Below, in pieces: positions 2,529 through 64,000 of a DNA stretch of 64,000 nucleotides. The notes beneath the pieces are model-generated. The model searched no databases. It saw nothing but the letters and a program-made list of their open reading frames with translations, and had not been told where the DNA came from. Position 1 is the first letter of the stretch. The number at the start of each line of letters is the position of its first letter. The stretch lies in contig JAULBX010020965.1 in NCBI GenBank assembly GCA_032358255.1, positions 1 to 64,000 of the forward strand. The letters are read 5' to 3'. Origin of the DNA: Heterotrichella gracilis. Its lineage: Eukaryota > Sar > Xanthophyceae > Tribonematales > Xanthonemataceae. Made by a program: the position numbers and the translations under genes.

Positions 2529-5500
2529 ATGAAGCAAGTCGGGTGCAAACCACACCAGCTAGCCCCCACCCACCCCATTGCTCGCTGCTCCCTACCACCC
2601 ACCCGCCACCGCAGCCACCCACCAGTCCACAGGAGGCGCAGCAACACTACCCAAGTCCATACCACCCACCGCCCCACCTCTCTCAGCCGCAGCCGGCCGC
2701 ACAGCACGCGAATCACCGCCACAGCGCAGGAGGTTGGGTACAGTGAGGTGGCAGAGGTTGACACCCTCAAGGGGGTGAGGGTCAGCTTTCCTGAAGAGGG
2801 CAAGCCACTGATAGAGTACCTGGTGGTGTGGAAGGTAGGTGGTGCTCCACAGATAGCCTTTTGGACGTTCTTTCCTTGACCACAGTTACTGACATGCTGG
2901 TGTTCTGTTATTGCAGGATGACTCTCCAGACACTTGGTGAGTGCCCCTTGACGCTACAGTCAGCTGTTATTGAGTATGAATGGGCTCATTTTTGGTGAAG
3001 TAACGGGTATTCCAGTAGCTGTGTAGTTAATTTCGTGTCGTGGTGGTTACCTGTGGGCGTGAAACTGCAGGGAGCCTGTGCAGAACCTGGCCGATAACCT
3101 GCTGAGGGATTATGAGGAGCGGTGGTGGGGCTGTGCACGCAAGGTGGGTGGTCTCGCAAGTGCTTTTAAAATATGCTTAGTCAGTTGTTCACACCAGAAC
3201 CTGGGCAGGGCTCAGCCTGCCTGCCCCCAAACCCTGAGCAAGGGTTCAACCAGCGTATGCTTCGGAAGGGCTGAACCTGGAATGCACCAGGACTTACACG
3301 GGGTTCAATCTTGAATTGCACCATATAATCTGAATGCAGCTGGGTTTTTGCCGTTTTCAATCAGGGCTAGTGCGACTAGTCTGATTGGTTGGTTGACTTG
3401 CCTTGCCTTTTTTAATTGGACCGGGGGTTTGCGTTGCGCATCGTCCCACCATACCGTACGCATGGCAGGTTCTACTTAGGGTTCAGCCTGCATGCAGCAC
3501 ATGGGGCCATGGGGCCAGCTATCTGTGTTCATGCTCCACTGCCTGTCATGACCCTGCATGCTCGGACAGCAAAGCCTTGAGGCACCAGGAATTTGGTGAA
3601 GCGCAGCGGAATCCTGCTCGGTTGCTGTGCAGGCTAATGCGGAGGTGATGGCGGAGATGCTGGCGGGCGGGGGCAAGGTGCTCGCGCAAACAATTGACGA
3701 AAATGGCAGATGGTGAGGAACAGATCAGCTTCACCCGTCGGATCTGATCCTGCTCGTCTGATTGGCGATGCAAGATAAATGCATGCCACTCGCTGCCTGC
3801 TATGCAATGCCTTGAAGTATGCTGGTGCCATGCCATGCCATACCATGCAGCTTGCTGCTCGGCCTGCCATTCCAATCTGCCGCCGCCCATGCCATCCCCA
3901 AACTACTCCCATGCCGCACCATGCAACGCAATGCCACCATGCTGACTGGTGAATCCTTAGCCTGAGCAAGTTCCCCACACCTTCTGCAGCGCGCTGCATT
4001 TTGCCGCGGCCCTGGGCAGCGTACCCTGCACCCAGATGCTGCTGCAGTATGGTGCAGATCCGGATGTGGGTGACAAAGATGGTGCGTTTTCTTTACTCTC
4101 TAGGTCCCAGACCCTTCATCCAAAACCCTGAACAGCTGCTGCAAAATCCCAGGCTCCATTCCATTTGATTGCTGCCGGCTGCATGGCTATACCCATATAT
4201 ACATGCACATGTTTCTCCCCCACACTCACCATAAATCACCACTCCTTTCTCTCCCGGATGTGGGCGACAACGACGGTGCGCCGGGCCCAGCTGCTCTGTA
4301 CCTTCCATATTGCTGTTATTGCTGTGCACCCCCAACCCCACCATTCTCATCAACGGCCCTGAACCATTGCCCTGCAATTCCTCCGCCACTCTGCGCCGTG
4401 GCTCACCAATGCGTACAGGAACATGCACACCCCCAAAAGGAGCAACACACGCACCACTATGCATACCTCACCCCTCACCCCCCGTTCCTCCCCTCGTCCA
4501 GGCTTCACCCCCTCCACATGGCCGCCGGCTACCGACTCATACACATGTCTTTTCCCCACACACAACCTCACTCATCTCCCTCCCTTCCCCCCCTCGTCCA
4601 GGCTTCACCCCCCTGCACATGGCTGCCGGCTACCTGCACACATCTACAGTCACCGCGCTGCTCCAAGGGGGTGCAGACCCCGAGTACAAGGACCAATCGG
4701 GGAGGGATGTGCTGCTGCTGGTGGATGGGCTGCGGGCTAGCCTGCCGGCGGACAACCCTGCGGTTTTGAGTAGGCGCATGGCCCTGGAGGAGGTGGCGCG
4801 CGTGCTGACGGGTGGGTGGTGGCGGTTTGGGGATTGTGCTTGGGGAGTGGATGGTGGGTGGGGGGGGTGCATGGCTCTGGAAATTGGTGTTGACGTGTGT
4901 GTGGCGGGGGGTATGGGGAGCGTGTTGTGGTGGGCGGATGGCGGGTGGTGGGGGGTTGCATGGTGGTGGAGGAGGTGGTGCGGGTGCTGACGGGTGGGGG
5001 GAGTGTGAGTTTTATCTGGTGGGGGGTGGAGGGGGGGTGAGTTGCGGATAGGCTGCACGCCTTGCTGCCTGGGAATGATGTGGCGGTCGGAATCAAGACA
5101 TGCGCTTGGTTGGAAACATGCGCTTGGGGTTGGAGATGTGCGCTTATTGGAGGGGGGCGTGCATGTTGTCTGGTGGGCGGGAAGGGTGGTGAGAGGTTGT
5201 GGGGACGTGGGTGCTGACGGGTGGATGGCGGCGGGCTGCTGGCTGGGCTGTTGGCTGCGTGGTCTGTGGGCAATTGTGTGGGCCTCCACAGGCGCATGGT
5301 GCTGGGGGTAGATGGTGTGCGCTTGACGGCTGGGGCTGAGGCTGGGTGAAGGGTCGAGCGGGGTGCTGCATGGATGGGATGTAGCCTTGTCATGGTGGAG
5401 CAATGTGGGGCTGTGTTTGTAGCACATTTTCCGCTGGCGACATCGCCTGCTCATTCCCTCCTCACTCTAGGTCTGTGTGTCTCACCTCCACCTGCCCCTG

Positions 5501-7179
5501 CAGACAACCTGTATCTCACGTCAAACCTACCCCCTCGTCCCACGTGGACATCCCTACCTGGTCCTATACCTGCGTGTCCACCCACACATGTATCTTCGGT
5601 ATGTTATTTCCGTTATTGTATTGTACCATGTATGATTACCGTATGATTTCCTGCGCAGACAACCTGTACGAGGACGTTGAGCCTATGGCCATAGCGGATG
5701 TGCGCACCAGCGAGGATGGCACGCGAGAATTCCTGATCAAGTTTGCGGATGGGAGCGAAGATAGCTGGGTGCGTGCATGGCGTTATGTGGCTTGAGACAT
5801 ATCGTTGAAATAACTGCAATTCTTCCGGAATATACAATACAAGATAAAAGAATGTTATCATACTATGCCTTGCTGTCGCTTGCTTACAGAATATTACATG
5901 TAATGTCATATGGACCCCAAATGTAATGTCATATGGTCAATGTCAATCAGGAAGAAGTTACATGCGGCTGGATCCACGTTTCCGGATGGGATTGAGGGAT
6001 GAACCGACATGGGTTCACGGCCGTCCAACATATCGTGGCACAGTGCATGGTTAGATGCGGTGTTATTTCCTTGCTCCCGCTGCCAACCAGTGCATGCGGA
6101 GTCAGACGGGGGCTGGCCTGTTGCACTCACGTGTGCCACCTCCCCGTCACACTCATGAGACCTTACTTCCCCTGTTGCTGCCCCACGCTGCAACATTTAC
6201 CCCCTGCTGCCTCAAAAGTTCCCCGTACAATTTCCCGCCTTTCACCCCCTGCCACTCCTTGCTGCGCAGTTAAGCGAGAAGTACGTCGCTGAGGACGTGA
6301 TTGAGGACTTTGACCGAGGCATTGAGTACGCTGAGGCCGACTGCCTGCTGGAGGTGCGGCAGCGAGGGGACGAGAGGAAGTACCTGATCAGGTGGGTGCG
6401 GTGGGGGTTGGGGTGGGGAAGGGGAGGGACAAGGGGGTGGTGTGGTGGGAGGAGGGACAAGGGGGTGGTGTGGTGGCATTTCTTGGTGAGTTAGGTGGGT
6501 GGGGTGGGTGGGAGGAGGGGCAGTTGGCTTGGTGGAAGTGCGGCAGCGGGGGAATGATTAGAAGTACCTCACGTGGGTACTTTGCGACGGGATAAAATGG
6601 GGAGCACGAAAGTGCGGTAAGCGGCACGACTGGTTGGCCACCATCTGCCACACTGGAAACAGTGTCATTTAAGCCTTGGCTCTAGGACTGGGGTGAGGCA
6701 TACCCAGACATGCTAACCTGGCTTCAAAGCTGGAAAGCAAATACTTACTTACTTACTTACCTCACGTGGGTGGAATGGGGGGTGGGGTGGGGGGCAGTGG
6801 GGTGGGGGAAGGGGGAGCAAGGGCATGCCTCAGTGTACCAGTACTGGTGGGGCCCCGTGGGGCGTGTTATGACCATAAAAGCTTGTGGTGTCGCTGCTGC
6901 ATGGATGGGGCCACGTAAATCAGGGCGGCTCGCCACTTCCGCCCTGTGCGCATCATGCTGTTGCCTGCGGTGTTCTCACCGTCCATTCAAACCCTAATCC
7001 ACACCCTGAATCGCAGGTGGCTGGATGGCTACCCCGACAGCTGGGAGCCCGAGGAAAACGTGTCTCCGGACCTCATCGCGCTATTTGAGAAGCAGCAGCA
7101 GGGGGAGCAAGAACCGCAGCACAGCAACGGGGCGGGGGCGGTGGGGGCTGTGGAAGTCAGCCAGCCAGCACCTGTGTGA
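2529..7179 (+). CDS. cpSRP43: Chloroplast signal recognition particle 43 kDa subunit (cpSRP43)
   Basis: Nine exons join in frame into 391 codons: 2529-2834, 2917-2936, 3071-3143, 3633-3712, 3990-4081, 4602-4811, 5659-5768, 6270-6391 and 7017-7179. Domain order is that of cpSRP43. A basic transit peptide (about residues 1-65) is followed by chromodomain 1 (EYLVVWKDDSPDTWEP), ankyrin repeats (CALHFAAALGS; GFTPLHMAAGY; GADPEYKDQSGRD), chromodomain 2 (FLIKFADGSEDSW) and chromodomain 3 (KYLIRWLDGYPDSWEPEENV). The family binds and disaggregates light-harvesting chlorophyll proteins in the stroma and hands them, with cpSRP54, to Alb3. Exon 2 is only 20 nt. The ATG at 2529 is chosen because it supplies a transit peptide in frame. 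Introns 5, 6 and 8 hold decayed copies of exon edges (separate entries). Family call is secure; the exact start is less so. Confidence 0.93.
4061..4646 (+). repeat. Copies of cpSRP43 exon 5 end and exon 6 start inside intron 5
   Basis: The exon 5 end with its donor (4061-4086, around GATGTGGGTGACAAAGATG) recurs at 4255-4282 with a few substitutions. The exon 6 acceptor and start (4591-4646, around GTCCAGGCTTCACCCCCC) recur at 4491-4545, including the AG and the coding start for GFTP-HMAAGY. Both pairs are direct repeats. The upstream acceptor copy ends in an altered reading, so the downstream one is taken as real. Confidence 0.85.
4781..5520 (+). repeat. Copies of exon 6 end and exon 7 start in the G-rich intron 6
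   Basis: The exon 6 end (GAGGAGGTGGCGCGCGTGCT, then GACGGGTGGG) is repeated at about 4956-5000 and in part at 5205-5225. The exon 7 start (CAGACAACCTGTA) at 5656-5668 has an earlier copy at 5499-5515, also preceded by a pyrimidine tract. The intron between is very G-rich on the plus strand (runs of GGTGGG), so long low-complexity frames on the minus strand there are not genes. Confidence 0.75.
6349..6785 (+). repeat. Copy of cpSRP43 exon 8 end plus short tandem repeats in intron 8
   Basis: The exon 8 end (6349-6396, GGAGGTGCGGCAGCGAGGGG then AAGTACCTGATCAGGTGGG) is echoed at 6531-6580 with the donor damaged (CACGTGGG). A 29-bp unit based on GGGACAAGGGGGTGGTGTGG is doubled at about 6423-6476. 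An ACTT tetranucleotide run lies at 6743-6760, followed by another CCTCACGTGGGTGG echo. Confidence 0.7.
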
Positions 7180-8727: not shown

Positions 8728-11700
8728 ATGGCAGTACGTCATATCCGGCGCAGCGCTGCTGCTGTCGTGGCACTGCATGCTCTTATCCTGGCAGGAGGAC
8801 GTGCATGCCTTGCGTCAGGTGCGCATGGCGTGCATGATGAATCAAGCTATCATAGCATAATGCAGTCTGCGCGTCTATGTACATGTGCTGCACAATTACC
8901 AATATTTATCTGCTGCTGGCTGCATGAAACACTCAACAGGAATTCAAACAGACAACCTCTGGGGCTGCATGTAAATGTGGCTTCCTTGCAGACGATACCT
9001 TGGCGAGCTCGTATGGTATCGATGCCAAGTTCAATCCGCAGCCAGACCCTCTCGCCAAGGTGGCTGCCAGCACGGATGGTAGGTTATGGTGGTAGCCAGA
9101 GGGGGAAATGTATCTCATGAGGGGCCTGTAGTGGCACTGCATGCATAAGAAAGTTTCTTATAAATACAAAGGTTTCTCCGCGCAGGCAGCTTGCCAGGAT
9201 ACGTGATTAAACCCCAGAGCCAGTCCACCATACCTGCGTGGACTGCGCAAGACTCCTTGGCTACCTCCTCTGCATCAGACATCCAGTGGGCCAAGGACCA
9301 TGTGGTGGGTGTGGGTGCTGCTGGAGCAACATCAGCTGATGGCACCCTGGCAGGTCCGTTGGAGTTCAAGAATGGCAAGGAGATCAACGGCGCAGCAGGT
9401 AGGGTGCTAATGGCTGCACTGGAATGTAGCCCGGTGCAGCAGGCTTGCCTACTTATTTGCTGCACATTTTTTACATTCATGTGTACTACTACCCCTCTGC
9501 TGCTACCATGGTCGCCATCAGTGACTACACACACCACTGATATACCAAACACTGTAAACTTGAATGAAAGCACACTCTCCTTTCCAGCTAAGATGGTGCC
9601 GTCATGCACACTTGCCTTTCCACCGAGATATCGTCTGGACCAGGTCTTTTATCATGCATCGATAAGCTCACTCTGTCCGTGTACTACACCGTGGCACGTG
9701 GCAGCTGAATACATGCATGGCATCAAAGGATCCAGTGCATGGCATCAAAGGATCCAGGCAAGGCATGAATTTTAGGTTGCATCAACACGTCCCCCATTGC
9801 ACAGACACCAAATTGGAGAAAATGTGTCAAGGAATGTAAATTATATGACCTGTTGTTTACCCTTTAACACATGTTATGTAATCATTATCCACACAATATT
9901 CATTTCAATCAATATGTGAATCAAGTAATCACGCATTATTTACATGATTGCCTTGCGGCCCAATTTCCCAGTCCATGTGCTGTGCTGATGCAGGCTATAT
10001 CCCGCCAGACCAGCAGGATGTTGAGAGCACCAAACTGTTCCACGACTGCTTCATCAGGAGTTGCGATGGGTCGGCAGCCAACAGCGAGAGCAAAGCCTTG
10101 TTGACAGGTAGGGCTGGTGCCAAAATTGAAAGGACAAAAGAAGCTGCAGCAGGAGGGTTGTATTGGCAACTTGGACGGTCCAAGTTGTGAAATTGCAAAT
10201 TAATGAGCATGGAGCAGATATATACCATTTAGAAGGCTAAAATTCATGAGGAGATTTTGAGTGTCTACTCTGCATATCTAGAGCGCTCACGTAGTCAACT
10301 GGGTTGTGTGCGCAGGCAACTCAGCAATGCCAGAGTACGTGTTCAACCCCAAAAGCCAGTCCACCACACCTGCGTGGACTGCGCAAGACTCCTTGGCTAC
10401 CTCCTCTGCATCAGACATCCAGTGGGCCAGGGACCATGTGGTGGGTGTGGGTGCTGCTGGAGCAACATCAGCTGATGGCACCCTGGCAATACCTGTTGGA
10501 GTTCAAGAATGGCGAGAAAACCGACTTTGCAAGAGGTAGGTAGGTAGATGTCACAGTGATTAGACTCTGGAATGCAGCAGTGCTGGGAGAGGGTTGAGTA
10601 CACCCCCGACTTATGTATTAATCCATGTAAATGAACTTATGGTGCACTCATCTGTTATGATTCATCCATCATGTTCTGGCATATTAAGTTATTAAACCTT
10701 AGGGAGGCGCCCGCGTGAGAACCTTTCCCATATATGTAACTACCCGCAGCTTCAGCCACAGGCAGGCATGACCCCATGACCATGTTCCCAAGCCGTTGTG
10801 CTGTGCTGATCCAGGGCCGCTTAATTACCTGGTTTGTCATCTCAATTGTTACTGTGCTGCACCAGGCCGGGTCCAGCCTACAGTGGCGCTTGCCCACGAG
10901 GATCTGGGGAGCACCAAGCTGTCCAATGACGGGATTGGGGGGGGCTGCCATGGGTTGGGTGACAACAGCGGGTATGATGACAAGGCCATGTTGACAGGTA
11001 GGATGCATCATGTACCTGTTCACCACATGTTCATTCATTTTGTTGCAAAATCACTTTTTGCAAATCACTTGCATTAACAATGTGCTGCCTGTCCTTTAGA
11101 GTGGTAGATGCCCTCCAGTTTCAAATTGAGAACACGCACAGAAATGATTTTTACATTATTCATTTCACTTAAGTCATTTATTCATGAAAGAAAGAAATGG
11201 TTGCCCTGGTGTTGAGCCTTGAACATTCACATCCGGGCAGGGCATATGCATCAAAGTAGGCGGAACCCCAATAACTGCAAAAGAGATTTTCTCTCATGGT
11301 TGAGCATGCATGTACTTGCCACTAACACAGACCCTGATTCCCGTGCAGGCAGCTTGCCAGGGTACATGATCAACCCCCAAGATCTGATCATCAGGCCAGA
11401 AGTTACCGCCACCGCTGACCCCGCTGCAGCAAAAATCCAGTGGACCAAGGAGCAGGCGGTGGGTGCGGGTACCGCTGGAGCAACCGCTGCTGGTGACAGG
11501 GATGGACTGCATTTAAAGAATAGAAAAATAGCTGACTCTGCAAGAGGTAGGGTGCTTTGCGCTGCACTTAGATTAGAATGCAGCAGTGCCAATGAAGCCT
11601 CCATATATGCATTTCCTTGTGTTCTCCTGTGATAATATTTGAGCCCTCATGCTCTTTTACAAGTAGTACTGTAATGCCAACAAGGCGCACATTTCCTCTT

Positions 11701-13889: not shown

Positions 13890-14144
13890 TGGGTAGAAAC
13901 GTCAGGTTTGTTTAGGCTTCTTCTCAGACGGGGATTGAGTTGAGCCCTAGCCAGTCCCCAACTCAGCCCATGGGGATCCGACGTCGATCAGTGCTGAGAA
14001 AAATCAAATTGGGACAGAAATCGCACAGGCTTGATAAGACAAGAGAGGACAACCACCTGCTAAAACCATGTGCGGTCACAAATCTTGCGGCAAGTACTGT
14101 GTTCTCTTCCGCCTGGCGTGCGCGCCACGGGTCGCTTTTACGCA

Positions 14145-16514
14145 ATGGGTGTGCATGCATGCATTGGCAATGGTGCCATGTCAGTGCGGTGCCAGCGGCC
14201 TGTACGCTTGGCTGCACTTTCACACACGCGTGCTGGACCAAACTGCCTTGCTACCAAGCAGCTGGGTAGGTCGTTGCACACAGCACCTGGGGCCACTGCA
14301 GGCCCACTGGGTGCAGTACCATGTTCAGGGTTTCTGGGAGTGTTCAAGAAGGCGACAGCAACCCAACCCACAATGCGCCGTCAGAAACCTTCTAAAACCA
14401 CAAGATGTGCTGATAGCACCGACATCGTAAGGTATGTCCCTCTTGGCGCACACTCCACTTGGGGACCCACTCGTACTAAGAAAACGTTGTGCAACAGGTC
14501 TCCTGCCAAGAACCCCAGCAGCCAGCAGCACCCCCTGAGAGTTACCTGGATACTGATAGGTGTCAACGTTGTCATGTTCATCATTTGCTGGGCGCCTTTG
14601 CTGCACTTGCAGCTCAACAGGTTGGAGCAAGGGGGGGGCTTTGTGGGCAAAGTGGCGAAAAAACTGGTCTCCTCGGCGGAACCCCTCCCTCACGCGGGAC
14701 CCTTGCTGCAGCAGTGGTGGCTGGTGGGTAACTTGCCATTTATGTTGACATGCTACTGCAAGGCTGTGTTTGCATACATATGGCCTGGGTCAGTACTCCA
14801 AAACAAGGGGTTAAATGTATACCCCTTCGGTGCTACCCTCACCCCTCACCCCTAAACCCTAAACGGTTAAATGTACACCCCTTCAGTGCTGGCCTTTGAT
14901 ACGTGACCTGGCTGTGCTGATATACAGGACAAGAAGCTGTTCTGGCAAGGGGAGTGGTGGAGGGCTGTCACGTACTCGCTCCTTCACTCTGGCCCTTCCC
15001 ACCTGCTGGTACGAACCCACAAGCAAGGTTGTAAATATAGCCTCAACTTGATATATGATATGAACTCCAAATATCAAAACCCTAAACTGTTCCAGCACCC
15101 TCTGGTGCGCCTTGTTTGGCAGCAGCTACTGATATACCGTCCATAGACTATGTCAAGTGCTAAAATACAGCCCCAAACCGTTTGCAAGCCGATGGCTTAT
15201 AGGCACTACAGCTGCACCAGCTGACGCCAATACACTCTTCTGGCATAACTCATCAGCATGCAACATGCAGCATCATGTTCGTCTGCTTTGCACAGCAACA
15301 CTTGTTGTGCCATGCCAATGGTATCTCCCTAATTTGTGCTGCAACCTTTATCATGCAGATGAACACTTCGTCTCTGTACGTGACTGGGAGGGACCTGGAG
15401 GGAGCAGTAGGCGCAGGGCGCTTCCTTGCAGTGTACAGCATCTCAGTGGTTGCTGCCTCCTTGGCCAGTGCGTTTCTCTACCCATCACCTCTGCCCTCCG
15501 TCGGGGCGTCCGGCGGAATCTGCGGGGTGTGGGCTGCATACGAGGTGGTCAAGGCATGGCGAAAAGCGACAATGTACTACCAAAACCTGGATGGCAGTGA
15601 CGCATTGAAGCTCTTCAAGGCTGTGGCATATTTGGTGCTGGATGCGTCTGGAGACTTGATTTTTGTGGCTGTTTATCTACAGATCATCCGGATCTGTATG
15701 CCGGGCGTGGACAACTGGTAAGGGCAGTGGCATTCTCACACTTGGATGGATTGCATGCACCGGCTCAGCGCCTGGTGAGTAATGTTGCGCTTGCGCCTTC
15801 TGGTTGGCGTGCATTGAAAGAAATGTTTGTGAGCAAGCCGCTCAGCCTGCTAGCATCACTGCTGCTGTTTTCTATCGCTTCCCACAAAGGTGGCCTATTT
15901 GCAACTTTTAAGGACAGCCGCTCATCATACAAAATTACATGTGGATTCATCAATGAGCATTCATTCCCTTGCACACCAGTGGTAGGGATAGAGGACCCTC
16001 ATCCCAGACTGACTGATCCATCTCTTTGGCCAAGAACCCATTTGCACAGCTTGTGAGGACAGGCATGTTTACATCATTTTGAGTATGCACGGCCTTTGAT
16101 AGTCAACCCATGCCATGATTATGTAGTTTGGTGTGCTTTCATATGCATCATGGTGGCCACTCCTGGTGCAAAAACGTGGATGACAAGGCATCTCCAGCCT
16201 GGCATCGCTTCACCTGAGCAAACAGTAATTAAAACGTTGCACTGGCTGGAACAAAAGTTTTGGTTGCATCCACTCCAACAAACGCCCTGTTGTTCTCAGT
16301 GTTTGTGGTGCAAAGGTTCTACTGCTCACAGAAATTGATGCGGGTGTGCAGGGCGCACGCAGGTGGAGTTGCTGGAGGCGTGGTTTGCATCCTGCTGTTG
16401 GGGATCATGCATGGTGTCAAGCACAGGCGGAGGATGCGGGAGGGGGGCATCCCACCCTCCAATCCCTTGCTGAGGAGTATGTGCCAACACTCAGGCTCGC
16501 CAAGCAACCTGTGA
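14145..16514 (+). CDS. Rhomboid-family intramembrane serine protease, probably plastid-targeted
   Basis: Five exons close in frame to 371 codons: 14145-14431, 14498-14723, 14928-15008, 15359-15717 and 16352-16514. After a basic, Ser/Ala/Thr-rich leader comes a first membrane segment (TWILIGVNVVMFIICWAP). Rhomboid signatures follow: EWWRAVTYSLLHSG with HLLMN (loop and oxyanion Asn), TGRDLEGAVGAGRFLAVY, the catalytic Ser in GASGGICG, and the catalytic His in VDNWAHAGGVAGG in the last membrane segment. The family cleaves membrane segments of partner proteins. A short, soluble basic tail ends GSPSNL. The plastid destination is inferred from the leader only; mitochondria are possible. The ATG at 14145 is the first in frame, and the same start is conserved in the tandem copy. 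Confidence 0.9.
14809..14890 (+). repeat. Short duplication in rhomboid intron 2 with telomere-type spacer
   Basis: GGTTAAATGTATACCCCTTC (then GGTGCT) at 14809-14834 recurs at 14865-14890 with two changes. The spacer holds CCCTAAACCCTAAAC at 14850-14864. It is a compact example of the pattern seen across the window. Confidence 0.85.
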
Positions 16515-17714
16515 AGTCATCGCAAGACCTTGTTGGTGAGGGGTGCTGAGAAGAAGACTCATGTCGTACCTTTCCTACACTGGAATGCACCTGCAGGCAA
16601 GGGGAATTGGAATCCTGTCAAGTGATGTCCAATGGTTGACCCCTCATTAGTGTGCAGCATGGCAAGTTTGGAGAGGGAGTGCAAGATCTTTATCTGCTGG
16701 CGCATCGTAGTCAGTAATGGCAGGTCATTGCGTCAGAATTTGATCAATCGGTCTCACAATAGCCAGTGTACACCATCATCTGGGCGTTCAATGCGCGCAG
16801 TGTGCGCAAGGTAGAAACAGGTGATACTATCGGGACTTTGCATTGCCAAAGCCCCCTGAAGACTCGGGCAAGCAAGTCTGCAGTGCCACACAGCCAATGT
16901 GATTGCCTGGTGTGTACACGTGTGGTCCACCTGAAATGATCGAGTCTGCGCATTAAATGCATTTGAAGGTAACTTTTCATACTCAACTGACTTATTTGCC
17001 AGGATTTTTATGCGTACTCAGCTGGAGCAGTTTATCGTATAGTTGCAAGGTTTGGGCACAGCATACACGGCTTCAAGACTGCAGTGTGTTGAAAAGGTCC
17101 AAAAATGAGAAGATATTTGAAGGTCACACATTCACTGAATGTGGGGGACCCCAGTATTAATGTCATTTAGTAGAAAGGGAGCTCCCTTTGCATTTCTACT
17201 GGCAGAGTTTCAAACAGGTCTTATATCTTCACACTTGTATGTTTGATTTCTCTAGTTTATAATTCCAGCAAGAATATTCCAGCAAGCATCCTGCGTTGGA
17301 TTTGCACAATGCCTTGCAACCGCGGTGGCTTGGTGTTGAGCAATGCTGCATGCCATGCACCTTTCAAAGTTTAAAACAAAATTTCACCTCTTGCGCGACA
17401 GCTGTTTGCTCAAATGTATGCACTGAGCCACTGTCAGGTTTGTCTGGGCTTCTCTGGGTAGATAAATAAGGTGATTTTCCGGCTGATTGAATTTTCTGGC
17501 CGTCGACGGGGATTGAGTTGGGCTCTAGCTGATCCCCAGCTCAGCCCATGGGGATTCGACTTCGATCGGTGCTGAGAAAAGTGGGACAGAAATCGCACAG
17601 GCTTGTAAGACAAGAGGGGGCCACCATCTGCTAAACACAAGTGCGCCCACAAATATTGCGGCAAGTGCAGTGTCTCCTCCGCCTGGCGTGCACGCCAAGG
17701 GTCGCTTTTACGCA
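16515..17714. other. 3' flank of rhomboid copy 1 and leader of copy 2
   Basis: No separate gene is seen. The first 650 bp are conserved with the matching flank of copy 2 (20091-20720). This may be long 3' UTR, or simply duplicated DNA not yet diverged. Confidence 0.5.
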
Positions 17715-20090
17715 ATGGGTGTGCATGCATGCATTGGCAATGGCGCCTTGTCAGTGCGGTGCCAGCGGCCTGTACGCTTGGCTGCACTGTCGCTCACGCG
17801 TGCTGGACCAAACAGTCTGACTACCAAGCAGCTGGTTAGGTCGTTGCACACAGCACCTGGGGCCACTGCAGGCCCACTGGGTGCAGTAGCACTGAAGTTT
17901 CTGGGAGTGAGCAAGACGACACCAGCAACCCAACCCACAATGCGCCGCCAGAAGCCTGCTACAACCATGAGATGTGCTGCTAGCACCAATATATATCAAG
18001 GTACGCCCCTTTTGGTGCACACTCGCTCTACTGGCTGGTACTACCAAGCCTTACTAACACGACGTTGTGCAACAGGTCTCCTGGCAAGAGCCCCAGAAGC
18101 CAGCAGTACCCCCTGACAATCACCTGGATACTCATTGGTGTGAACTTCATCATGTTCTTCGTTTCCTGGGCGCCATTTCTGCAGTTCCAGTTCAAGCTGT
18201 TGGAGCAAGGGGGGGCGTCGCTAGGACAAGTGGCGAAAAACCTGGTCTCGTGGACTGACCCCCTTTCTCATGCGGGACCCTTGTTGCAGCAGTGGTGGAT
18301 GGTGGGTACTTTTGCGATTCATGCTGAGTCAGACATGCCATCTTGCATGCCTTTGCTTGTATATGGCCTGGGTCTGTACTCTAAAACAATGGGTTACACA
18401 CACAACCCTCTGTTGCACCATGGTAGACCTTTGATACATTTTCTGGCTGTGGTGCCGTACAGGTGAAGGAGCCATTCCTCCAAAGGGAGTGGTGGAGGGC
18501 TATCACGAGCGCGCTCATCCATTCTGGCCCTTTCCACCTGCTGGTACGTACACACGCACCTTTCTTTTGAAATCTCAATATGAATCTCTAGGGTTTTTGA
18601 CTAGTTATATTGAACCCTACACAGCAGTGCTGGAGCGCCTTGTTGGGCAGTGGGCTACTGAAGAACTCCCATAGTCAACTGCTGACTTATAACCCTCAAC
18701 CGCTTGCAGCCAAGAATTCATAGGCAGTGTGGTGCATGCACCAGCTGACGCCAATAAACTCGTCCTGACATTACTCATCAACCGCGTGCAGCATACAAAG
18801 TCACATGTGTCTATCTGCTTCAAAGCAAATGCACTATGACAGTTGTTTGTGGCTATGCGAAAGGTACATCCCTAATCCCTGCCGCAACCTGTGTCTTGCA
18901 TATAAACAATATGTCTCTGTACGTAACTGGGAGGGACCTGGAGGGGGCAGTAGGCGCAGGGCAATTCCTAGCCGTGTACAGCATTTCAACGGTTGCTGCC
19001 TCCTTGCTCAGTGTGTACCTAAACCCATCGCATCTGCGCTCCCTGGGGGCGTCCGGCGGAATTTGCGGGGTGTGGGCTGCATACGAGGTGGTCAAGGCGT
19101 GGCAAAAAGCGACACAGTACTACCAACAGGTGGATGGCAGTGACTTATTGAAGCTCTGTGAGGGTGTGGTCGGCTGCAAGCGTGATGGAGACGGCTGTTC
19201 ATATACAGATTATTCAAATCACAATGCGCGGCGCGGACAACTGGTAAGCTCAAGGGCAGTGGCATCTTCATACTTAGATTATTTGCATGCATTGTCTCAG
19301 TACCTGATGAGGCACTTGCACCTTTGGATTGGCATGCAATCACTGGGGATCGATTCATGCGCAAGCCGCTGTTGGAATCACTGCTGTTGGTTTTATGGTT
19401 CCCTTACAAGCTTAATGCAGACGTGGCCTAGAGTAGGGATGCAGCGGGCTTATCAGACTGGTGTGGATTGAGCAAAATTTGACTGCATTACATGTGCATT
19501 TGTGTGCTCGCACATCGGTGGTAAAAATAGAGGGGTCTCATATCAGACTAACTGGTCCACATCCTTGGCCAATAATTTACTTGCACAGCTTGTCGCAAGG
19601 ACAGTGTCATGCCTAGTCCATTTTGGGTGCACCCTATTGCACAGCCGCTGATAGTCAACCCATGGCATGGTTTTCTACTTTACTGTGCAATGCCATTCAC
19701 TTCCTCCATGGTGCCCACTCCTAGTGCACAGAAGTAGAAGGCAAGGCATCCCCAGTTTATAATTGCTTCACCTGAGCGAATAGTAAATAAGCGATGCATT
19801 TACTGTTGTTTTAGCCTTTTCTTTGCTAGTTCCATGCTCTTCAACACTGCGCAGCGCCCTGTTGTTCTCAGTACTTGTGGTGCAAAGGATCTACTGTTCA
19901 TTTACGGTAATTAATTTGGGTGTGCAGGGCGCACGTGGGTGGTGCTGCTGGCAGCGTGGCTGGCATGGCAGTGGTGGGGATCATACATGTTGTGAAGCAC
20001 ATGCTGGGGATGCTGGTGGGGGGCATTCCACCGTCCAATCCCCTGCTGAAGAGCATGTGCGAACACATAGGCTCGCCAAGGAACCTGTGA
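17715..20090 (+). pseudogene. Second rhomboid copy, apparently decaying
   Basis: Exons aligned to copy 1: 17715-18000, 18076-18301, 18463-18543, about 18902-19243 and 19928-20090. Exons 2, 3 and 5 stay open and keep rhomboid residues (HSGPFHLL; the catalytic Ser in GASGGICG; AHVGGAAGS). Three defects are visible. Exon 1 is 2 nt off-phase, in an ATATAT run before its donor. The AG that should precede exon 4 reads AT (TTGCATATAAAC). Exon 4 is 17 nt shorter than in copy 1, which shifts the frame before the last catalytic helix. Other splice choices could rescue one defect but hardly all three. This is the host's own gene, most likely a pseudogene or a gene in early decay. Confidence 0.75.
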
Positions 20091-45600: not shown

Positions 45601-48600
45601 CCGCCAGCCCCGCAAACAGGATGTTCAGCTTGAGGTTGTCCTTGGCCATGCCAGCCTGGACCATCTCCTCGCGCATGTTTGCCATCTGGCGCTGCGCAGC
45701 CTCGAGCTCGCCTGGGGCAGGGCAGGGATTGAGACAATGTTGATTTCATGTCCAGGGTTATAACGTGCGTGTCTCCTCCGTGGGAGGGTGGTGCACTTTT
45801 CGTGGTATCATCCCTAAACCCTAAGCTGGTGTATGCATGTCTGTCATCTGGCGGTGGGTAGCCTCGCGTTCCCTGGGCAGGCAGAGATGCAGGGTCAGGA
45901 TAGGGTGGTAACCCAGCTGTACTGCGAGAGGGGAGAGAAAGAAAAAAAGAAAGGAGAAAAAAATGCATGTAGTGAACTAACCCTAGTTAATGGATGTAAT
46001 GAAGTACTACCCTATGGTATGACGGCCAGACCTGCCTGCACCAACTGCTTGCGCATGTCTGCCATCTGGGCCTGCGCTGCGTCAAGCTCACCTGCGGCAG
46101 CAGAAGGGTCAAGGCACAGTGAAGATCCCATGCACATGCAGCACCATGCCTGCGCTACCATCATGCCACGCTGATGCTTCAGGCGGGGTGCATCCGAAGA
46201 CGCTACAACCCCTATCCATACCATTGACACATAGATTCCCGCTACTCCGCTACCCAAGCGCCATCTACCCATACTCCCACTACCCATCAATGGCCAAGGG
46301 CACAACCCCCGCCCGCGCCATGCTTGGCGCACATGGAGGGCCTCCGCCAACTGCGGCCACACAGCACGCACTCCTGTCCCCCTCAAGTGCATGCAAGGCA
46401 CAATAAAGAAACGCACATCTGCACAGCCTCCCCATGAACAGGCGCGTCGGTTGCGTGCAGGCACTTTATATGCAGCTGTGCACTTCAACCAGATGGTGCG
46501 AGTGACGCCGACCCTAAACCCTAAAACCCTACGCCCTGCACCCCATCACGCACGTCTCTTCTTGTCCAGCTCCCTGCTCATTGCCTCCATGTCGATCTTG
46601 GTGGCGCTGCGCATCGTCTCAAGCTCGTCGATCAGCTTCACAACCTGGGCACAGCAGCAACAAATGCTTTCAATGCTTTGATAGATAAGAGCAGATAAAT
46701 CGTCTCAAGTTCATCCATCAGCTTCACAACCTGGCCGCACCAATAGATTCATAAACAGATAATGCCACATAAAGGCAACAAACCCAAATACCTACGCAGC
46801 TTCAAATCCTAGCGGCAGCTTAAAGTTAGAGGAGGAACCCCATTTGCTTTTGCGCTGTGACCAGCCTGGACACATCCGAGTTGAGCTGCTGTATCTGTGC
46901 CAGCTGGCTACTCAGCTAACCCACCATGGGCAGCTCGTCTAGCTCCACCAAAATCCCTGAGCCCGCAACCCTCCACCCTAATTCAAGCTCGGCACCTGGG
47001 TGGTCCAAACAGTGCCAGGAAAGAGCTGCTTGGCGCCGCAAGCGCAAGACTGATTGCTAACCTGGCTGTATTGCTGGAATGCCTGTGACTCATCAGCGTG
47101 TAAATAACCTCGCTCCCGAGCCACCCACCTGCTTGTGCGCTATCACCAGCCGGTCCTGCCCAGCAACCAACCTAGACACTTCCGAGTTGATTTGCTGGCT
47201 CAGCGACAGATGTGGCTGCTGCGCCTGGCCCAGCCAGCTACTCAACTAAATCCACCATGAGCCAGCTCGCCTATAACCATAAACCCCAGAGCCCACAACC
47301 CTCTACCCCAATCCAAGCACACCCACCTGCTTCTGCGCGATCACCAGCCGGTCCTGGGCAGCAATCAGCCTGGACACGTCCGAGTTGAGCTGCTGGCTCA
47401 GCGACTGCAGCGGCTGCTGCGCCTGTGCAAGCTCGCTGCTCAGCTGGTCCATCATGGGCAGCTTGTCTGTCGCGTGCAACAGCTGCGACTGCAGCTGGTT
47501 GAGCGCGTTGAGGTCCAGGTCGATCTCCTTGCTGGTCTCCTTCAGCTCGCGCTCCAGCCGCTGGTTCATCTGCACCGCGTGAGCAAGTCAGGTCAACAAA
47601 GAGAGGGGCCTGGCCACAAGACGTCTGCACAGCGTGAGCAAGTTACGTCAACAAAAAACAGACCTAGCCATATGAGCCTCACCAAAGCGTGAGCGAGTCG
47701 ATTCAACAAAGAAACAGATCTAGCCATAAAAAAGAGCTTCCCCAAACCTCCCAACCCACCAGCCCAGTGACGTGAAAAAGTTAAGCCAACAAAGAAATAG
47801 ATCTGTGACCCTCCCCCGCCACCCAACCCACCAGCCCAGTGTGAGCAAGTCAAGTCAACAAAGAAACAGATCTATACATATGAACCTCCCCCACCACCCA
47901 ATCCACCAGCCCAGCCAACGAGGCATGATCAGCACATTGAGGGATTAAAATTGAGGCCTGACCAGCCCACAAAAGTATGTTGTCTTCCTGTCAGGTGGGT
48001 GAGGACAAGGACCACATTGACCAACTGCCATGTGCCAGATGTAAACCTGCCAGTTGTGTCCAGAGTACCCAACCAACTACCAGGCAGCAGCAGCAATTCA
48101 AGGATACTACCGTACCTGCTTGGCCTCCGACACTGCCGATACTATCTCGGCCTCGAGCTGGTCCTGCGACAAGGTGAAGAGCCACTCAGCATAAGGAACC
48201 AGGGGTGAAGCTGCACCAAGCAATGTGGTTCGACACCCATAATAAGAGTCACTCCGTCACATTCAGCAAGCGGGCTACTGCACTGCAACCTCCCTCTTCA
48301 ACGCAGAACTTGAACGGATTATTATGGATTAACGGTTGGTAAGTTCATAGCATTGGGAAATCACACCTGGTCGGCCAGGACGTCTGCCTGTGCTGGCAGA
48401 AGGCGTGGAGCTAGCACAAGGCTGGCAAGGGATAGGAGCGCCCCACGACGGCTGAACCCAGCTGATGCTGTTTGGCTGGGGCTAGTAACCTGGCGGGAAG
48501 CAGCCTGGTCATCACGCTGGCTGGCCCTGACAACCACCACTCGGGCCCTGGCAGGGAACGTGGTGCATTTGTGGGCGGTGCCGCTGCCGTTCCTCACTAG

Positions 48601-49898: not shown

Positions 49899-52800
49899 CT
49901 AGTCAGCGTGCCTTCTTGGTGGCAGAGGCGGGTACAGGATGTTTTCCGGCATGTGGTGGATGGTGTCTGAGGGCACGTGCTTGCGGATGAGTGCCTCCAG
50001 GTCTGGCCTGGTTAGCCCCGCTAGGGCATCCACTTGCTCGCCTGCAGGGGGAGAAATAGTTATGCTAGGGAGAGAAATAGTGATGCTGTAGGGAGTACAG
50101 AATGGTGATGCCATAGGGAGTGCTCGCCTGAAGGGAGAGAATAATAACGCTATAGTGGCGCAGAAAGCTCTATTGTGCAATTGTAATAATACTGATCTAG
50201 GCTAGCAGACACACCTCCCACCAGCACCCCGCACCTCCACAGAACAGGTAGAAAGCCGGCGTCATCCTCCCCTTCAACCTGTTCTTGTATAAATCCTTGC
50301 AGGCCCCGTTGCTGTCTGCATGGAACTTGACCACCCGCAGGCAGTCCTGGTAGTGGCGCGCCAGTGCATCGACATGTGGATCCATGAACTCACACGCCCC
50401 GCACCACGAAATGGCTGCGTACACCATGGTGAGGCACTCGGTGCTGCACGCGATGGCGGCCTCGACGTCGCCGGGGGTGGGGAGGAGGGTGACGGCGCCG
50501 GGGCGGGGCTGCAGTGGGGGGATGGTGGGTGGGTGGGTGGGTGGGTGAGGGTGTGGTGGTGTGAGTGGGGGGATGGTGAGGAGTGGTGTGTGGGGGGCAA
50601 TGGTGGGGTGTGGTGGGAGAAATGCATGCAACAAGGATAGTAATGTCTCGCTTGCAGGCGTGGCTCCATGTGGTGCATGTGATGGTGGATCATGTTGGTG
50701 GTGGTGGTGGCGGGAGTGGTGGTGATGGTGATGATGTGGTGGTGGTGGGGGGGGGGGTGATGTGACGATCATGCGCCTCGCTCCTGTGAGATGACCAGCT
50801 AAGCCCTGAGACCTCCACCTATGCCCACACCCACCTCAAAGCTTGCGCTGCATGCCTGCTCCACCTCCCCGCACCGCTCGGGCTGAAGCTGGAGATAGGC
50901 GCGCACCTGGGCGCAAGCACACGGATCATATTGAAATAAATAATTACAACAATATAAAACATAAGAATGGCGTATGGCGTGCGTGTTCAAGAGGCAATGC
51001 ACTGCACTTCATCATAAACCCTTAGCTCTACAGGTGGCGCAGGATGGGCCCAGGCGCCTCGCTCCACAAGTCCTGGGTCAACAGATGCAATCCTCGATGA
51101 AGGGCCAGGGTCATCTTTAGTGTCTCATGATGCACATTCCTCTGAGAGGGTTCAGCAGCCCTTACTTGGAGCTTGGAATTTACGGTTTGAGAGCTTGGAA
51201 TGTAGGGTTTTGTGGTGCACGCACGCACCTCGCTGAGGTTGAGCAGCTCCTCCTGGAACATGCGCAGGAACTCCCGGAACTCAATGGTGCCGCTGCGGTC
51301 AACATCATACCTGCGGGAGGGGTAGATGGTCAGGCTTCAATTTTTGTGGAAGAAATGGCAATAATTGTCGTGTCATTTCCTAATCAATGGGTAGGAACTC
51401 AATGGTGCCGCTGCGGTCAACATCGGACCTGGGGGGAGGAGGGGTGTAGGGTTCAGTCCTTGGGACCTGAAGCCTATGTCAGGCTTTGTTTTGTGTCAAT
51501 ATTGGCATTTAGTGTCTTATGCACTTTCCGTGCATACAAATAATCCTATGAGATTGTGTCTTACCCGTGAGCATAAACCCTAAACCATGCACGCACCTCT
51601 GCAGCTCCTCGGCCACCTCCTCCTGGCTCGTCCCCTCGCCCACCATAAACCCCAACCCCTAAGGCATAAACCCTAAACCCTACACGCACCTCTGCAGCAC
51701 CTCAGCCACCTCCTCCTGGCTCATCTCCTTGCCAAGCCTGCGCACATGGGTAAGAGCAAGGGGATTAGGGCCTGCAGAGAAGGGGTCTAATGAAATGGTT
51801 GGATTTGCTGTGCAGATGTTAGGATCATCCTGCCTGCCGTGCCTGATGGCGTGGGCTGCAGCTGCGTTTATGGTTTAACAATGCTCTGATTCTGGGGATT
51901 GAATGCAGTACAGTATGCAGCGTTGGTGCCCACACATGCATCGCATTCACATCGGCATTTCAACTCGAATGACATCCATGCGGCATACATGAGCACAGAA
52001 ACCGTGGAGCTGGGTAGGGCTGCGCTAGATGTTACAATTCAGATTGCACGCACTTGCACAAAAATCGCTGCAGCTCGGAGGCGCTGAGTTTGCCATCCCC
52101 GTTTTCATCTGCGGCATCAAACGCCTCCTGGTATTGCTGCAGCGTGCCGTTGAGCAGGATGCCATCCTGGGCCTGCGGCGAGGGTCCCAGGGATTGGCCT
52201 AGGGTTTGGACCGGTACTCTTTTGTTGATCATGTAGGCAAGATGCCGTTCTGGGCTGCCATGGAAGGAGGGCAATAGTACTATGCTGGTGTATGATGTAC
52301 AAACAGCTATGAGTGCTACTTCCACCATAAATGATTTCTGCCATTGGGCCACAACCACACATGCCCTCAATGCTTGAGCAGGGAGTGCAAGCTTGTCACT
52401 GAAAGTGACAGCAGCCGGTCAATTCATGGTTCAATGAATAGTTCAGAGATTAAGGTTAAGGGTTTCACCCCATTGCGGTATCGTTGCAGACTTACCAGGA
52501 CCACAAACTCATCAAAGGATAGTCTCCCTGATCGGTCCACGTCATACACCCGCAGCACCTCGTCAACCTCCTCGGGAAGGATCCATGACTGAGGGCAAGG
52601 GATCGCTATGTCAGTAGGGTAAAAGCTGCGTTTTGGTACCGCGCGAGTTGTGGCCTGCTACCAATCCTTCATTGGCCAGATAAAAAGTTCATGCAAAGTG
52701 ACACCTGCTAGGCTGACTGTTGCTGACTGAATGCCGGAGAGAGAGGCGCCACTTCCATGGAGGTAGAATCCTAGTCTATGAAGCAAACGTTAGACTATGA

Positions 52801-59627: not shown

Positions 59628-62051
59628 TCATGACGTTGGTGACGTGGTCGCCGTAATGCTCACTATACCACCCGCACCCCCATCCCCGCCCCGCGCCACC
59701 CCGCCAGCAATCTCCCCTTGGCCGCACCACCTCCCCTCCCGGCACGCCCAGTACCGCACCCACGCCGGCAGTTCCTCCCCCAACCCCCCCACCGCCAGCA
59801 CATCCACCACCATGGGTGGCAGCTGCGCCCCAAACCTCCCCCGATGGCTGTGCAGGAACTGCAGGGCGGCTGCTAGCGCGTGCACCTGGAAGGCTATTGC
59901 TGCGCACAGCAGGGACACGCCAAGGGCTTGCAGCATGCGTGCCGCGGGCTCTGCAGGTGGGGGAGGGTGTGCGTGAGGGTGAAGGGTTTGAGGTTTGAGG
60001 TTTGAGGTTTAGGGTTTAGGGTTGGTGTGGTCCTGAGGGCGTGGTACTTGTGGCGCGGGAGCCTCCACAGGCGCTTGGGGGTGGTGGGCGCAGGGTAGAT
60101 TTTGGGGTAGGGTTTTTGAGGGTGTGTGGCTGGTGGATTTGGCATGCGCAGGCCTTGCGTGGAGCTGGTGGCGCACATTGGCCCCTAAAGGCCTGGGCGC
60201 CCGCCCACACACCCTCTAATCACATACCACATACCCTACCCTATGCGGCGCACGTAGGTCTGCAAAAGTATTTTTGGCTTGAAAAGTGCACCACACTTAC
60301 CGTGTGAATAAATTTGCTTCTATTTAACGAAAAGTATTTTTCCATGCACAGTGGCTCCCCACGCCACTGTGGTGTGGCCCTCCTCCTATGCCAACTACAA
60401 CAACAAAAACCCCCACCTGCATGCATGCGCTCCAACAGCCTGTCAAACGCCCAGGGCACCAGGGCGCAGGCCAAGCCAGTGGCCGCGTAGGACAGCGCCA
60501 GGCGAGGGAGCAGGTGGAAGCTCCTGCAATGGGGAGGGATGGGGTCTAGGGTTCTAGGGTTTTTGGGATGAGATTTTCCTCCAGGAGAAAAGGGGGGTTC
60601 ACTGCCTAAGGAAATGGAAGTTTCCACGATGGGATGGATTGGCAGGTTTCATTACAGTTTGCCCACACAAGAGGCAGAGCTTTTGCAAAGGGTACTCCCC
60701 ATCCATGCATCGGCCCCTGGTGGCGCCCACCCCCCGATCACCATGCACGCATGGCATGGCATCATGCGTGCACCAGCCGGAGTTACAGTATAACACAAAC
60801 TCATAATCCATCCCTCTTTTACCTGTACATCACCGCGCAGCCCCTGCAGCAGTCCCCCACCGCCCCCATCACCATATTCCCCCGCAGGTCAAGCGCGGCA
60901 TCCAGCTCAACGCGCGCACACATGGGGTTCTTAATTCGGACTCTATGTAATGTGATACCTTTTATCACATTTGAATTAAAACTTTCCATTTTGAGCACTC
61001 ATCGGGTTCCTGGTTGCCACATGTACTAGAACACTGACTAAAACCCTCCTTACCTGTACATCACCGCGCAGCCCCTGCAGCAGTCCCCCACCGCCCCCAT
61101 CACCATATTGCCACGCAGGTCAAGCGCGGCATCCAGCTCAGCGCGTGCACCCATGGGGTTCCCGGTTTTGTCCAGCGCATCGGACGCCAATCCCCAGTTG
61201 ATTGGCTCCTCCCCCAGAAAAAAGGTGGTCCAGGTGTCCTGCGGGTGGAAGGCCTCCTTGCTGACGTGGCACTTGCAGGAGGGGCACACGTACTCGGGGA
61301 AGTCGCCTGGGGAGGGGGAAATAGTGTGGGGGAGGTTTTGGGTGTTTTTCACCATTGTTCTGTCATTCTACTGGGCTGGAGAATGGCATAATGCGTGCTA
61401 ATTAGGCCAGGTGTGCGCCTATTATGACCCTGCGAGCCCTGCGTGTGGTGCTACACTCATGACTTCCTGTCCTGGTGCCATGCGGTGACAAGGGTACCAG
61501 AAGGGTTCCAGGAGAGTTGTACCAGTGGTGCTGGTGTGCCTGGGACACATCTCACCAGGCAACTTCTTAATCATTGAATATAATAAGTGCATAGGTACAA
61601 TGTACTGATGGTTCAGGACCCTGATACTAGTCGTGGCACTGTTGGGTTGCTAGGCAAACCCCACCAGGCTGGGTTGCAGGGACACACACCACCACCCTCC
61701 ACCAACCAAGTATAACCAGCCCGCACCTGTGAATGGGCACAAAAGGGCGTTTTTCTTGGCCGATATGGTGTCACCTGGGCCCACAGGTCCAGCATTCCAT
61801 GGGAACCTCCGCAGGTAGTGCTCGGCTTGGACCCCAAAGGTGATACCTAGGTGGAGCGCAGCATACGCAGCACACAGCACTGATGCCACGCAGGTAAGTG
61901 TGATCTGGACGGCTATTACTGACTGTGGGGCTGCGAAGACCGCGGCTGCTGTGCTGGCCAGGCATGCTGCTGCGATGGCAGCGAGGAGCCTGGCATGGGG
62001 GCCCAGGACCAATGCTGTGGAGACAGGCGAGAGGAGCAGCACCCACAGCAT
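59628..62051 (-). CDS. Membrane protein with zinc-ribbon-like cysteines, family unknown
   Basis: Four minus-strand exons close to 335 codons: 61727-62051, 61054-61306, 60417-60523 and 59628-59950. Hydrophobic segments: LWVLLLSPVSTALVL, LLAAIAAACLASTAAAVF, VIAVQITLTCVASVLCAAY, LALSYAATGLACALVPW and LGVSLLCAAIAFQVHALAAA. Between them lies a Cys-rich soluble part: ALLCPFTG, YVCPSCKCHVSKEAF and, later, VGDCCRGCAVMYR, which could bind a metal or form disulphides. The C-terminus is Gly-rich. I do not recognise the family. The start at 62051 is the first ATG of the open exon; CGCAG just upstream leaves room for another 5' exon. Intron 2 contains a 110-bp copy of the exon 2 end. Confidence 0.7.
60820..61160 (-). 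repeat. 110-bp copy of an exon end with its donor
   Basis: 61053-61160 (TACCTGTACATCACCGCGCA ... CATGGGGTTC) recurs at 60821-60930, nearly identical over about 110 bp including the splice donor. The copy still reads open, so use of either donor is conceivable. ACTAAAACCCTCC precedes the real copy. Confidence 0.92.
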
Positions 62052-63080: not shown

Positions 63081-64000
63081 TCAGGCAGCCGCAAAGAAGC
63101 TCGCCGGCACCGCCCCATGCAAAAACTCCCAAAGCTTCTTGGCAGCACCCGCACCCCCCATCACCCGCTCCAGCGCATCTTTCTCAATCCCCACCAGCCC
63201 CGCCAAAGATCCCGCCTCCCGCATGAGCCCCCGGTAATTTGCATCGCTCACCCCCGGGAGCCGCCGCAGCATGTCAATGGCGGGCTGGTTCACCACCGAT
63301 TCCGCGCCGGCGGCGGCTGCGCCGGCGGCCGGCATGCCGTCGGGGCCGAGCGGGATGCCAATGGCGGCGGCGGCAGCGGGCTCGGGCTCGTCCTGATTGC
63401 TTTTGAGGGCCTGCGGGTGGAGCGGGTGGGGGTGGGTGACATGTAGTAGGTGCCCAGCGGCCCTACTAGGGTTTTAGGTTTCAGGGTTGAAGTTTAGGGA
63501 ACCGCACAAAATCATGCCACCCAGAAGAAGGATACCCGCCGTGGCGTGCAGCAACCTTGACTACAAAACACTTAATAATACCTACACCCTAACCCCTAAA
63601 CTGCGACCTTTACCTTGGAGGATGTCCACCATTGCGTAGAGCCTCCCTGGCAACATTATCCTAAACCCTTCACTCTACTCCCTAAGCCCTGCATCCCGGC
63701 CCTCACCTGGAAGATGTCCGCCGCGGCGTGCATCGACCTCCACCATCCTCAAACTGGGGACATAGAGCACCAACGGAGGTTTTTAACCTAAACCCTCAAA
63801 CCTCAACCCTAGGTTCTCACCTGGAAGATGTCGGCAGTGGCGTGCAGCGACCTCGACCATATTATTCTCACCCTGGGGAAGTGCAGGCACAGCAGCACCA
63901 GGCGCGACATGAGCGCCCCGCTGCTGATGTCATCCCCGATGTCGGCGGTAGCTTGCACCACAAACGCCTTGTCCGCCTCAAATTCGATGAGCAGGATGGG
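63081..64000 (-). CDS. XPF: DNA repair endonuclease XPF/RAD1 (ERCC4 family), C-terminal part
   Basis: Two minus-strand exons are in the window: 63821-64000 (continues past the right edge) and 63081-63410. The first encodes the end of the ERCC4 nuclease domain: ILLIEFEADKAFVVQ, ISSGALMSRLVLLCLHFPRV, IIWSRSLHATADIF. The second holds a Gly/Ala-rich linker after ALKSNQDEPEP and the paired helix-hairpin-helix domain (AIDMLRRLPGVSDANYRGLM; VMGGAGAAKKLWEFLHG) that binds ERCC1. XPF-ERCC1 cuts DNA 5' of lesions in nucleotide excision and crosslink repair. The phases agree (0/0). The nuclease-core acidic motif lies outside the window. Confidence 0.93.
63530..63875 (-). repeat. Copies of an XPF exon end in the following intron
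   Basis: The real exon end and donor (63815-63860, TCTCACCTGGAAGATGTCGG, GTGGCGTGCAGCGACCTCGA) is echoed at 63705-63762 with the donor intact (CCTCACCTGGAAGATGTCCG), at 63612-63640 (CCTTGGAGGATGTCCACC) and as a fragment at 63535-63560 (GCCGTGGCGTGCAGCAACCT). Telomere-like CCTAAACCCT units lie between copies. Confidence 0.88.

Follow-up and report, generated by a model that had tools for sequence, protein, structure and literature searches.

Why should introns hold copies of the edges of the very exons that they separate? The question is raised by a 64,000-bp stretch of the Heterotrichella gracilis genome (assembly GCA_032358255.1, contig JAULBX010020965.1, positions 1 to 64,000; hereafter the window), for which a preliminary description had reported that segments spanning splice sites recur as direct copies in the neighbouring introns of most genes. 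Self-alignment of the window shows that these exon-edge copies are real. Direct local copies are far commoner than expected by chance, are not caused by low complexity and, as had been described, are graded in age, with pair identities of 65-96% among the modelled genes.

The genes were modelled with a small self-trained, seeded gene finder run on the window, from which 14 models were retained by hand; they rest on sequence rather than on RNA evidence, and comprise 114 junctions, 12,383 exon bases and 21,085 intron bases. Pfam matches identify ankyrin and chromo domains (cpSRP43), a rhomboid, GDPD, FKBP_C and PsbP, while PDB sequences confirm the products of the RNase J gene (E 4e-81) and of the calredoxin gene (best match 5e37, E 3e-43); chloroplast proteins are present among the window genes. 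Of 10 proteins queried against Pfam, four returned no family (the 58.5-kb protein, gene A, the coiled-coil protein and the membrane protein), the F-box match scored under its curated cut-off, and the labels XPF and gene42 are readings of the translation only. Short or low-scoring predicted exons were omitted by hand from the models, as were whole predictions at 41.6-42.2 kb, 56.8-58 kb and 58.2-59.0 kb and four predicted exons regarded as copies (47129-47224, 46925-46956 and 46032-46091 in the coiled-coil gene; 60823-60942 in the membrane-protein gene). Since these last omissions favour a junction reading in the two genes concerned, the counts were repeated in four confirmed genes in which copies are present and the product is confirmed by Pfam or PDB, namely cpSRP43, GDPD, RNase J and calredoxin.

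When the window was compared with its own sequence by plain BLAST (E ≤ 1e-3), there were 26 direct and 0 inverted pairs less than 500 bp apart, and 2 direct and 2 inverted pairs 1000-2000 bp apart. A more sensitive self-alignment (1/-1 scoring, which suits 75% identity; ≤1200 bp; E ≤ 1) gave 56 direct pairs against 0 mirror-image and 0 inverted pairs with the low-complexity filter on, and 65 direct against 5 mirror pairs with the filter off. Within the 14 modelled genes, 33 pairs at E ≤ 0.02 fall into 20 families (coiled coil 5, RNase J 5, cpSRP43 3, GDPD 2, calredoxin 2, and one each in the membrane-protein, XPF and gene42 genes), four of which have three or more pairs; pairs extending beyond the modelled gene spans, such as 24780/24874, 35983/36144 and 42749/43705, are excluded from this set. 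The aligned pieces are mostly 35-150 bp long and mostly 55-230 bp apart, and some families contain at least three copies. In all 24 exon-derived pairs the copy sits in the intron adjoining its exon, in a set whose filter already demanded a copy free of exon and whose pairs are not all independent.

The association with splice junctions was measured in three ways. A direct copy scoring ≥20 within 600 bp was found for 20 of the 114 junctions and for 0 of 114 with reversed flanks (a count made before three junction corrections), the figures at a score ≥16 being 29 and 6, and 18 of the 114 junctions lie inside a copied piece. By families, 17 of the 20 have a junction inside the copied piece with at least one base on each side. 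Sliding each pair along its gene, under the rule that one or both copies stay clear of exons, predicts 6.3 (p 5e-7), or 8.2 if that rule is dropped (p 4e-5); one of the 17 reaches over its junction by a single exon base. The excess shrinks as more bases are required on each side (15 families against 6.0 at three bases, p 2e-5; 13 against 5.6 at five, p 4e-4; 10 against 4.7 at ten, p 0.007; 7 against 3.8 at fifteen, p 0.06). In the four confirmed genes, 10 of 12 families span a junction against 3.9 expected (p 3e-4), with 8 against 3.4 at five bases (p 0.004) and 7 against 2.7 at ten (p 0.006). By positions, a local copy is found for 17.5% of the positions at junctions, 16.4% of those in intron interiors, 7.2% of those in exon interiors and 2.5% of those outside the modelled genes, although the intron-interior value includes the partners of junction copies, each of which adds one intron partner. 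The preliminary description had made its case dependent on copies being denser at exon edges than elsewhere in the gene, which holds, with reserve, by family count and on its face fails per position.

Junction-spanning families occur in 7 of the 14 modelled genes, about half rather than most, and include cpSRP43, the phosphodiesterase (GDPD), RNase J and the coiled-coil, calredoxin, membrane-protein and XPF genes as previously listed. The FKBP gene of that list is unconfirmed, as a 42-bp pair (35983/36144) falls outside both modelled exons of the gene, and a 25-bp copy of part of an FKBP exon is situated beyond the end of the gene. No junction-spanning family was found in gene A, the two rhomboids, FKBP as modelled, F-box, PsbP or gene42. 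The copied pieces are as follows.

4565-4634, plus strand: acceptor edge of cpSRP43 exon 4602-4811, with a copy at 4465-4533 upstream in the intron (E=2e-14, 87%).
4776-5334, plus strand: cpSRP43 donor at 4811, with decayed G-rich copies in the next intron at offsets 85, 182, 409 and 518, the clear one being that at offset 182 (4958-5001).
6343-6569, plus strand: piece of cpSRP43 exon 6270-6391 that stops 6 bases short of the donor, with a copy at 6527-6569 (E=0.003); counted as non-spanning.
22483-22706, minus strand: donor edge of GDPD exon 22674-22804, with two intron copies (22575-22613 and 22483-22540); counted as non-spanning because the best pair is copy against copy.
24186-24503, minus strand: GDPD exon 24176-24262 with its acceptor, copied at 24384-24503 (E=9e-30, 85%).
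24780-25009, minus strand: GDPD acceptor at 24786, in a 91-bp tandem array of 2.5 copies; outside the modelled span and not among the 20 families.
28041-28154, minus strand: donor edge of RNase J exon 28123-28367, copied at 28041-28075 (E=4e-6, 94%).
30438-30575, minus strand: acceptor edge of RNase J exon 30270-30462, copied at 30530-30575, where the acceptor reads AA.
30763-30959, minus strand: donor edge of RNase J exon 30915-31077 (2 intron bases), copied at 30763-30808 (E=2e-8, 91%).
31038-31247, minus strand: acceptor edge of the same RNase J exon, copied at 31190-31247 (E=3e-11, 86%).
32254-32422, minus strand: donor edge of RNase J exon 32375-32498, copied at 32254-32319, where the donor reads AT.
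43451-43577, no strand: intron-only repeat of gene42, the sole family without an exon part.
45436-45620, minus strand: donor edge of coiled-coil exon 45575-45711, copied at 45436-45520 (E=2e-14).
45644-46100, minus strand: acceptor edge of the same coiled-coil exon, copied at 45835-45888 and 46024-46100.
46613-46742, minus strand: acceptor edge of coiled-coil exon 46554-46644, copied at 46699-46742 (E=1e-6, 86%).
46851-47468, minus strand: donor edge of coiled-coil exon 47327-47569, copied at 47122-47272 and 46851-46988 (E=4e-32).
47569-47914, minus strand: intron array by the acceptor of coiled-coil exon 47327-47569, almost wholly intronic (1-3 exon bases) but classed as spanning where a single base suffices.
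51276-51435, minus strand: acceptor edge of calredoxin exon 51229-51310, copied at 51394-51435 (E=2e-8, 93%).
51571-51733, minus strand: 48-bp calredoxin exon 51690-51737 with its donor, copied at 51571-51640 (E=1e-17, 90%); the exon was set by hand to keep the protein length of the aligned 5e37.
60819-61161, minus strand: donor edge of membrane-protein exon 61054-61306, copied at 60819-60930 (E=4e-39, 96%).
63675-63860, minus strand: donor edge of XPF exon 63821-64000, copied at 63675-63746; the exon end was placed by hand.

Part of the junction excess is due to preservation, as exon sequence hardly drifts and a pair anchored in an exon therefore accumulates differences at about half the rate of an intron pair, so that exon-anchored copies stay recognisable longer. 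When tandem duplications at the observed spacings were planted in the real gene sequences with their real introns, 40-46% of the admissible placements spanned a junction, and recovery was equal up to 8% divergence (junction 98-100%, intron-only 99%). At 14% divergence 95% of the junction copies and 79% of the intron-only copies were recovered, at 20% the figures were 105/137 (77%) and 57/163 (35%), and at 26% they were 55/128 (43%) and 1/172 (1%). Forward simulations of uniform duplication and neutral decay over the gene set, with the same detection (eight settings, 288 replicates), gave junction fractions of 0.08-0.42 and reached the observed 0.85 in none of the 288; they used shuffled introns and yielded 29.9-64.4 families per replicate against the 20 observed, an excess in all eight settings. 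An earlier simulation at a higher rate gave 0.33-0.44. Among young families (exon part ≥88% identical, or intron-only pair ≥80%), a count by hand gave 10 at junctions against 2-4 intron-only (p 0.004-0.026), with few events and with the intron-only number depending on the treatment of one marginal pair and two arrays. The bias thus accounts for some of the excess, and a several-fold preference for junctions remains likely, though not certain.

Once in the intron, the copies look like dead sequence, though they may be under weak constraint. They differ from the exon at 115 of 812 bases in codon positions 1-2 (14.2%) and at 84 of 408 in position 3 (20.6%), a ratio of 1.45. Four simulations in which a dead copy decays next to a constrained exon give 1.48-1.55, so that this ratio shows no selection on the duplicate. 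Changed codons comprise 48 synonymous, 100 nonsynonymous and 2-3 stops, depending on the pair alignment used; neither the synonymous share (32% of 150 changed codons against about 25% simulated) nor the number of stops (2 against 4-6 expected at simulated rates) is decisive. The splice dinucleotide (GT or AG) is kept in 20 of 24 copies, and the kept sites have median scores in the top 5% (donors) and top 1% (acceptors) of intronic GT and AG, which is as expected for copies of that age. Spare splice sites are left in the introns as had been proposed, but the accompanying statement that, as a rule, a single copy retains both the frame and the splice site does not agree with these figures or with the few stops. 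No whole-exon duplication with both splice sites was found, since no exon-derived copy extends over more than one of the junctions of its exon; this count excludes the pair 42749/43705 of gene42, in which both members were modelled as exons. That pair consists of exon ends with donor at 42749-42806 (EEYVFFRGRRVPRSQ) and 43705-43761 (EEFVYFRGRRVPRSQ), 956 bp apart, and is possibly a duplicated exon. As to the proposed lengthening of introns, copy-bearing introns are longer (n=17, median 496 bp) than the others (n=40, median 316 bp), but long introns are also larger targets for random hits (length-weighted mean 480, observed mean 530).

The best explanation, and in our view the probable one, is short direct duplication that is tolerated because the exon-proximal splice site remains in use. 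It is based on the direct orientation and nearness of the copies, their position in the adjacent intron, their dead-copy substitutions and the kept splice signals. The genome would undergo frequent short direct duplications, and a gene receiving a duplicate across a junction would survive, as the exon-proximal site could still yield the old mRNA. The second copy would then turn intronic, retain a usable-looking splice site for a time and decay neutrally, whereas duplications within exons would presumably be removed by selection; junction copies would be over-represented in view, since their exon half cannot change and remains recognisable. That the copies are direct, lie close to their source and in some families number three or more indicates that DNA was duplicated locally; the underlying event may be patch-type repair of staggered breaks, or replication slippage and template switching.

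Several observations weigh against this explanation. Under strict tandem duplication the copied piece should be nearly as long as the spacing (median ratios of 0.71-1.00 in the simulations), while the real median is 0.51 (15 families). Intron homology past the splice site reaches p<0.05 in only 11 of 24 pairs by anchored comparison, which is overly strict at indels, and in 12 of 24 by local alignment, which is noisy, and is absent even in some 93-96% copies. The intron half of the aligned pairs is short (384 of 1604 aligned bases) and amounts to only 2-4 bases in some of the youngest copies (membrane protein 96%, RNase J 94% and 91%), for which neither comparison found significant similarity further into the intron. 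Pasting of random pieces fits the spacing better than the strict tandem model, but predicts a junction in 0.56-0.66 of exon-derived copies, where nearly all families have one; neither model fits all the data. Uniform duplication with decay, as modelled, also falls short of the data (0 of 288 simulated windows). Decay has blurred the breakpoints, and later spacer insertions and slippage may blur the picture, as exemplified by a TGG run at RNase J 28076-28119 and by a palindrome in the membrane-gene spacer. The latter (60949-60971; AATGTGATA / TATCACATT) is small, lies between the exon and its 96% copy, and is perhaps a miniature inverted-repeat element.

A process targeted at junctions, in which breaks, nicks or template switches favour exon-intron borders and copy exon edges into introns, speculatively through RNA-DNA hybrids at G-rich intron starts, would account for the family-level excess (17/20 and, in the confirmed genes, 10/12), for the failure of every simulation to attain the observed fraction, for the age-matched excess in the hand count, and for the scarcity of repeats at non-modelled positions (2.5% against 16.4% in introns). 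It would also suit the exon edges with copies of ≥91% exon identity, six in number: in five the copy ends 2-12 bases past the splice site, and in one it continues for 37. However, the young events are few, the preservation bias among older copies is strong, the density per position is equal at exon edges and intron interiors, and the excess fades once 15 bases are required on each side (p 0.06); we therefore regard such targeting as possible but doubtful. The same tentative standing is given to the broader proposal that in this lineage short direct duplications arise preferentially at exon-intron junctions as mutational hotspots, which would make splice-site duplication a main engine of intron growth and a standing source of spare splice sites.

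Retention by selection of the extra exon edges as alternative exons or splice sites appears unlikely. The high-scoring GT and AG sites, the few stops, the slightly numerous synonymous changes (48/150) and the gene finder itself, which called the coiled-coil copy 47129-47224 and the membrane-protein copy 60823-60942 as exons, would suit it, but the codon-position ratio is that of dead copies, 20 of 24 dinucleotides is close to what neutral decay would leave at 14% divergence (0.86 squared, 0.74), and the exon part of the GDPD copy contains seven codons that change the amino acid. Low complexity, which had been named as a possible refutation, or chance similarity, combined with shared splice motifs, has virtually no standing as an explanation and is already excluded for the strong pairs: TGG runs and telomere-like heptamers abound in the introns, and some cpSRP43 pairs are weak and G-rich, yet with the filter on no mirror-image or inverted pair appears at the threshold that gives 56 direct ones, and reversed flanks give 0/114 junctions against 20/114.

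The telomere-type heptamer TTTAGGG is about five times commoner in the window than other heptamers of equal composition (49 against 9.3 per 7-mer; whole window, mostly introns), with examples at 24278-24292, 51669-51682 and 60008-60021. Half of its 70 intron clusters lie within 60 bp of a splice junction (31% expected, p 0.0008), while no role is claimed at the edges of the copies, where the figure is 18% (n=99) and 12% would be expected (p 0.05, edges assumed independent). Elsewhere in the window, three related stretches of about 140-230 bp with similar open frames are spaced at about 1 kb (9178-11551) and are possibly a mobile element. The neighbouring plus-strand genes at 14064-16060 and 17529-19480 are rhomboid-like (Pfam was run on the first only), and neither has a repeat family at E ≤ 0.02. 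No relatives were found when the calredoxin and PsbP proteins were queried against viral contigs, or a 2.9-kb DNA query against plasmids.

Intron lengthening and the origin of spare splice sites have mostly been argued from rare cases. In a genome where about one junction in six carries a datable self-copy (18/114 in the window), the rate, age and fate of such duplications would become directly measurable, and splice junctions could be tested as fragile sites. The two copies called as exons are also a warning for gene predictors.

Among those open-licence papers on such patterns in algae that were covered, a part of each result list judged by title and opening of the abstract, none describes introns that are packed with duplicates of the junctions at their own ends; passages of PMC7617258 on the repeat-rich Haematococcus genome do not mention such copies. 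In rice, natural tandem duplications are reported to arise from patch-mediated break repair (Vaughn and Bennetzen 2014, via PMC7407515), and the review passage describes tandem and partly tandem duplications, with non-tandem ones derived from ≤200 bp of the break. As in the window, this repair leaves insertions of 10-1000 bp that duplicate nearby DNA; unlike here, the passage is silent on splice junctions, and in the window an origin by break repair is inferred. For some Drosophila positions it has been proposed that new introns were gained when coding sequence carrying a proto-splice site was duplicated in tandem, and intron sliding is described as well (PMC2891723). This resembles the present case in that exon sequence is duplicated and one copy becomes intronic, but in the window it is existing introns that hold copies of their own junctions, and a new intron position is not shown. 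Direct repeats of ≥5 bp at gained Drosophila introns (19/77) are given in PMC3296678 as no commoner than at conserved ones (26/100). Tandem exon duplication with mutually exclusive splicing (PMC9013439) likewise repeats exon sequence inside a neighbouring intron, whereas in the window only part of the exon is copied, mostly with one splice site, and the copies have a neutral appearance. As judged from these portions of the literature, the kind of event seen here is already known, and it is the density of the copies and their link with splice junctions that are unusual.

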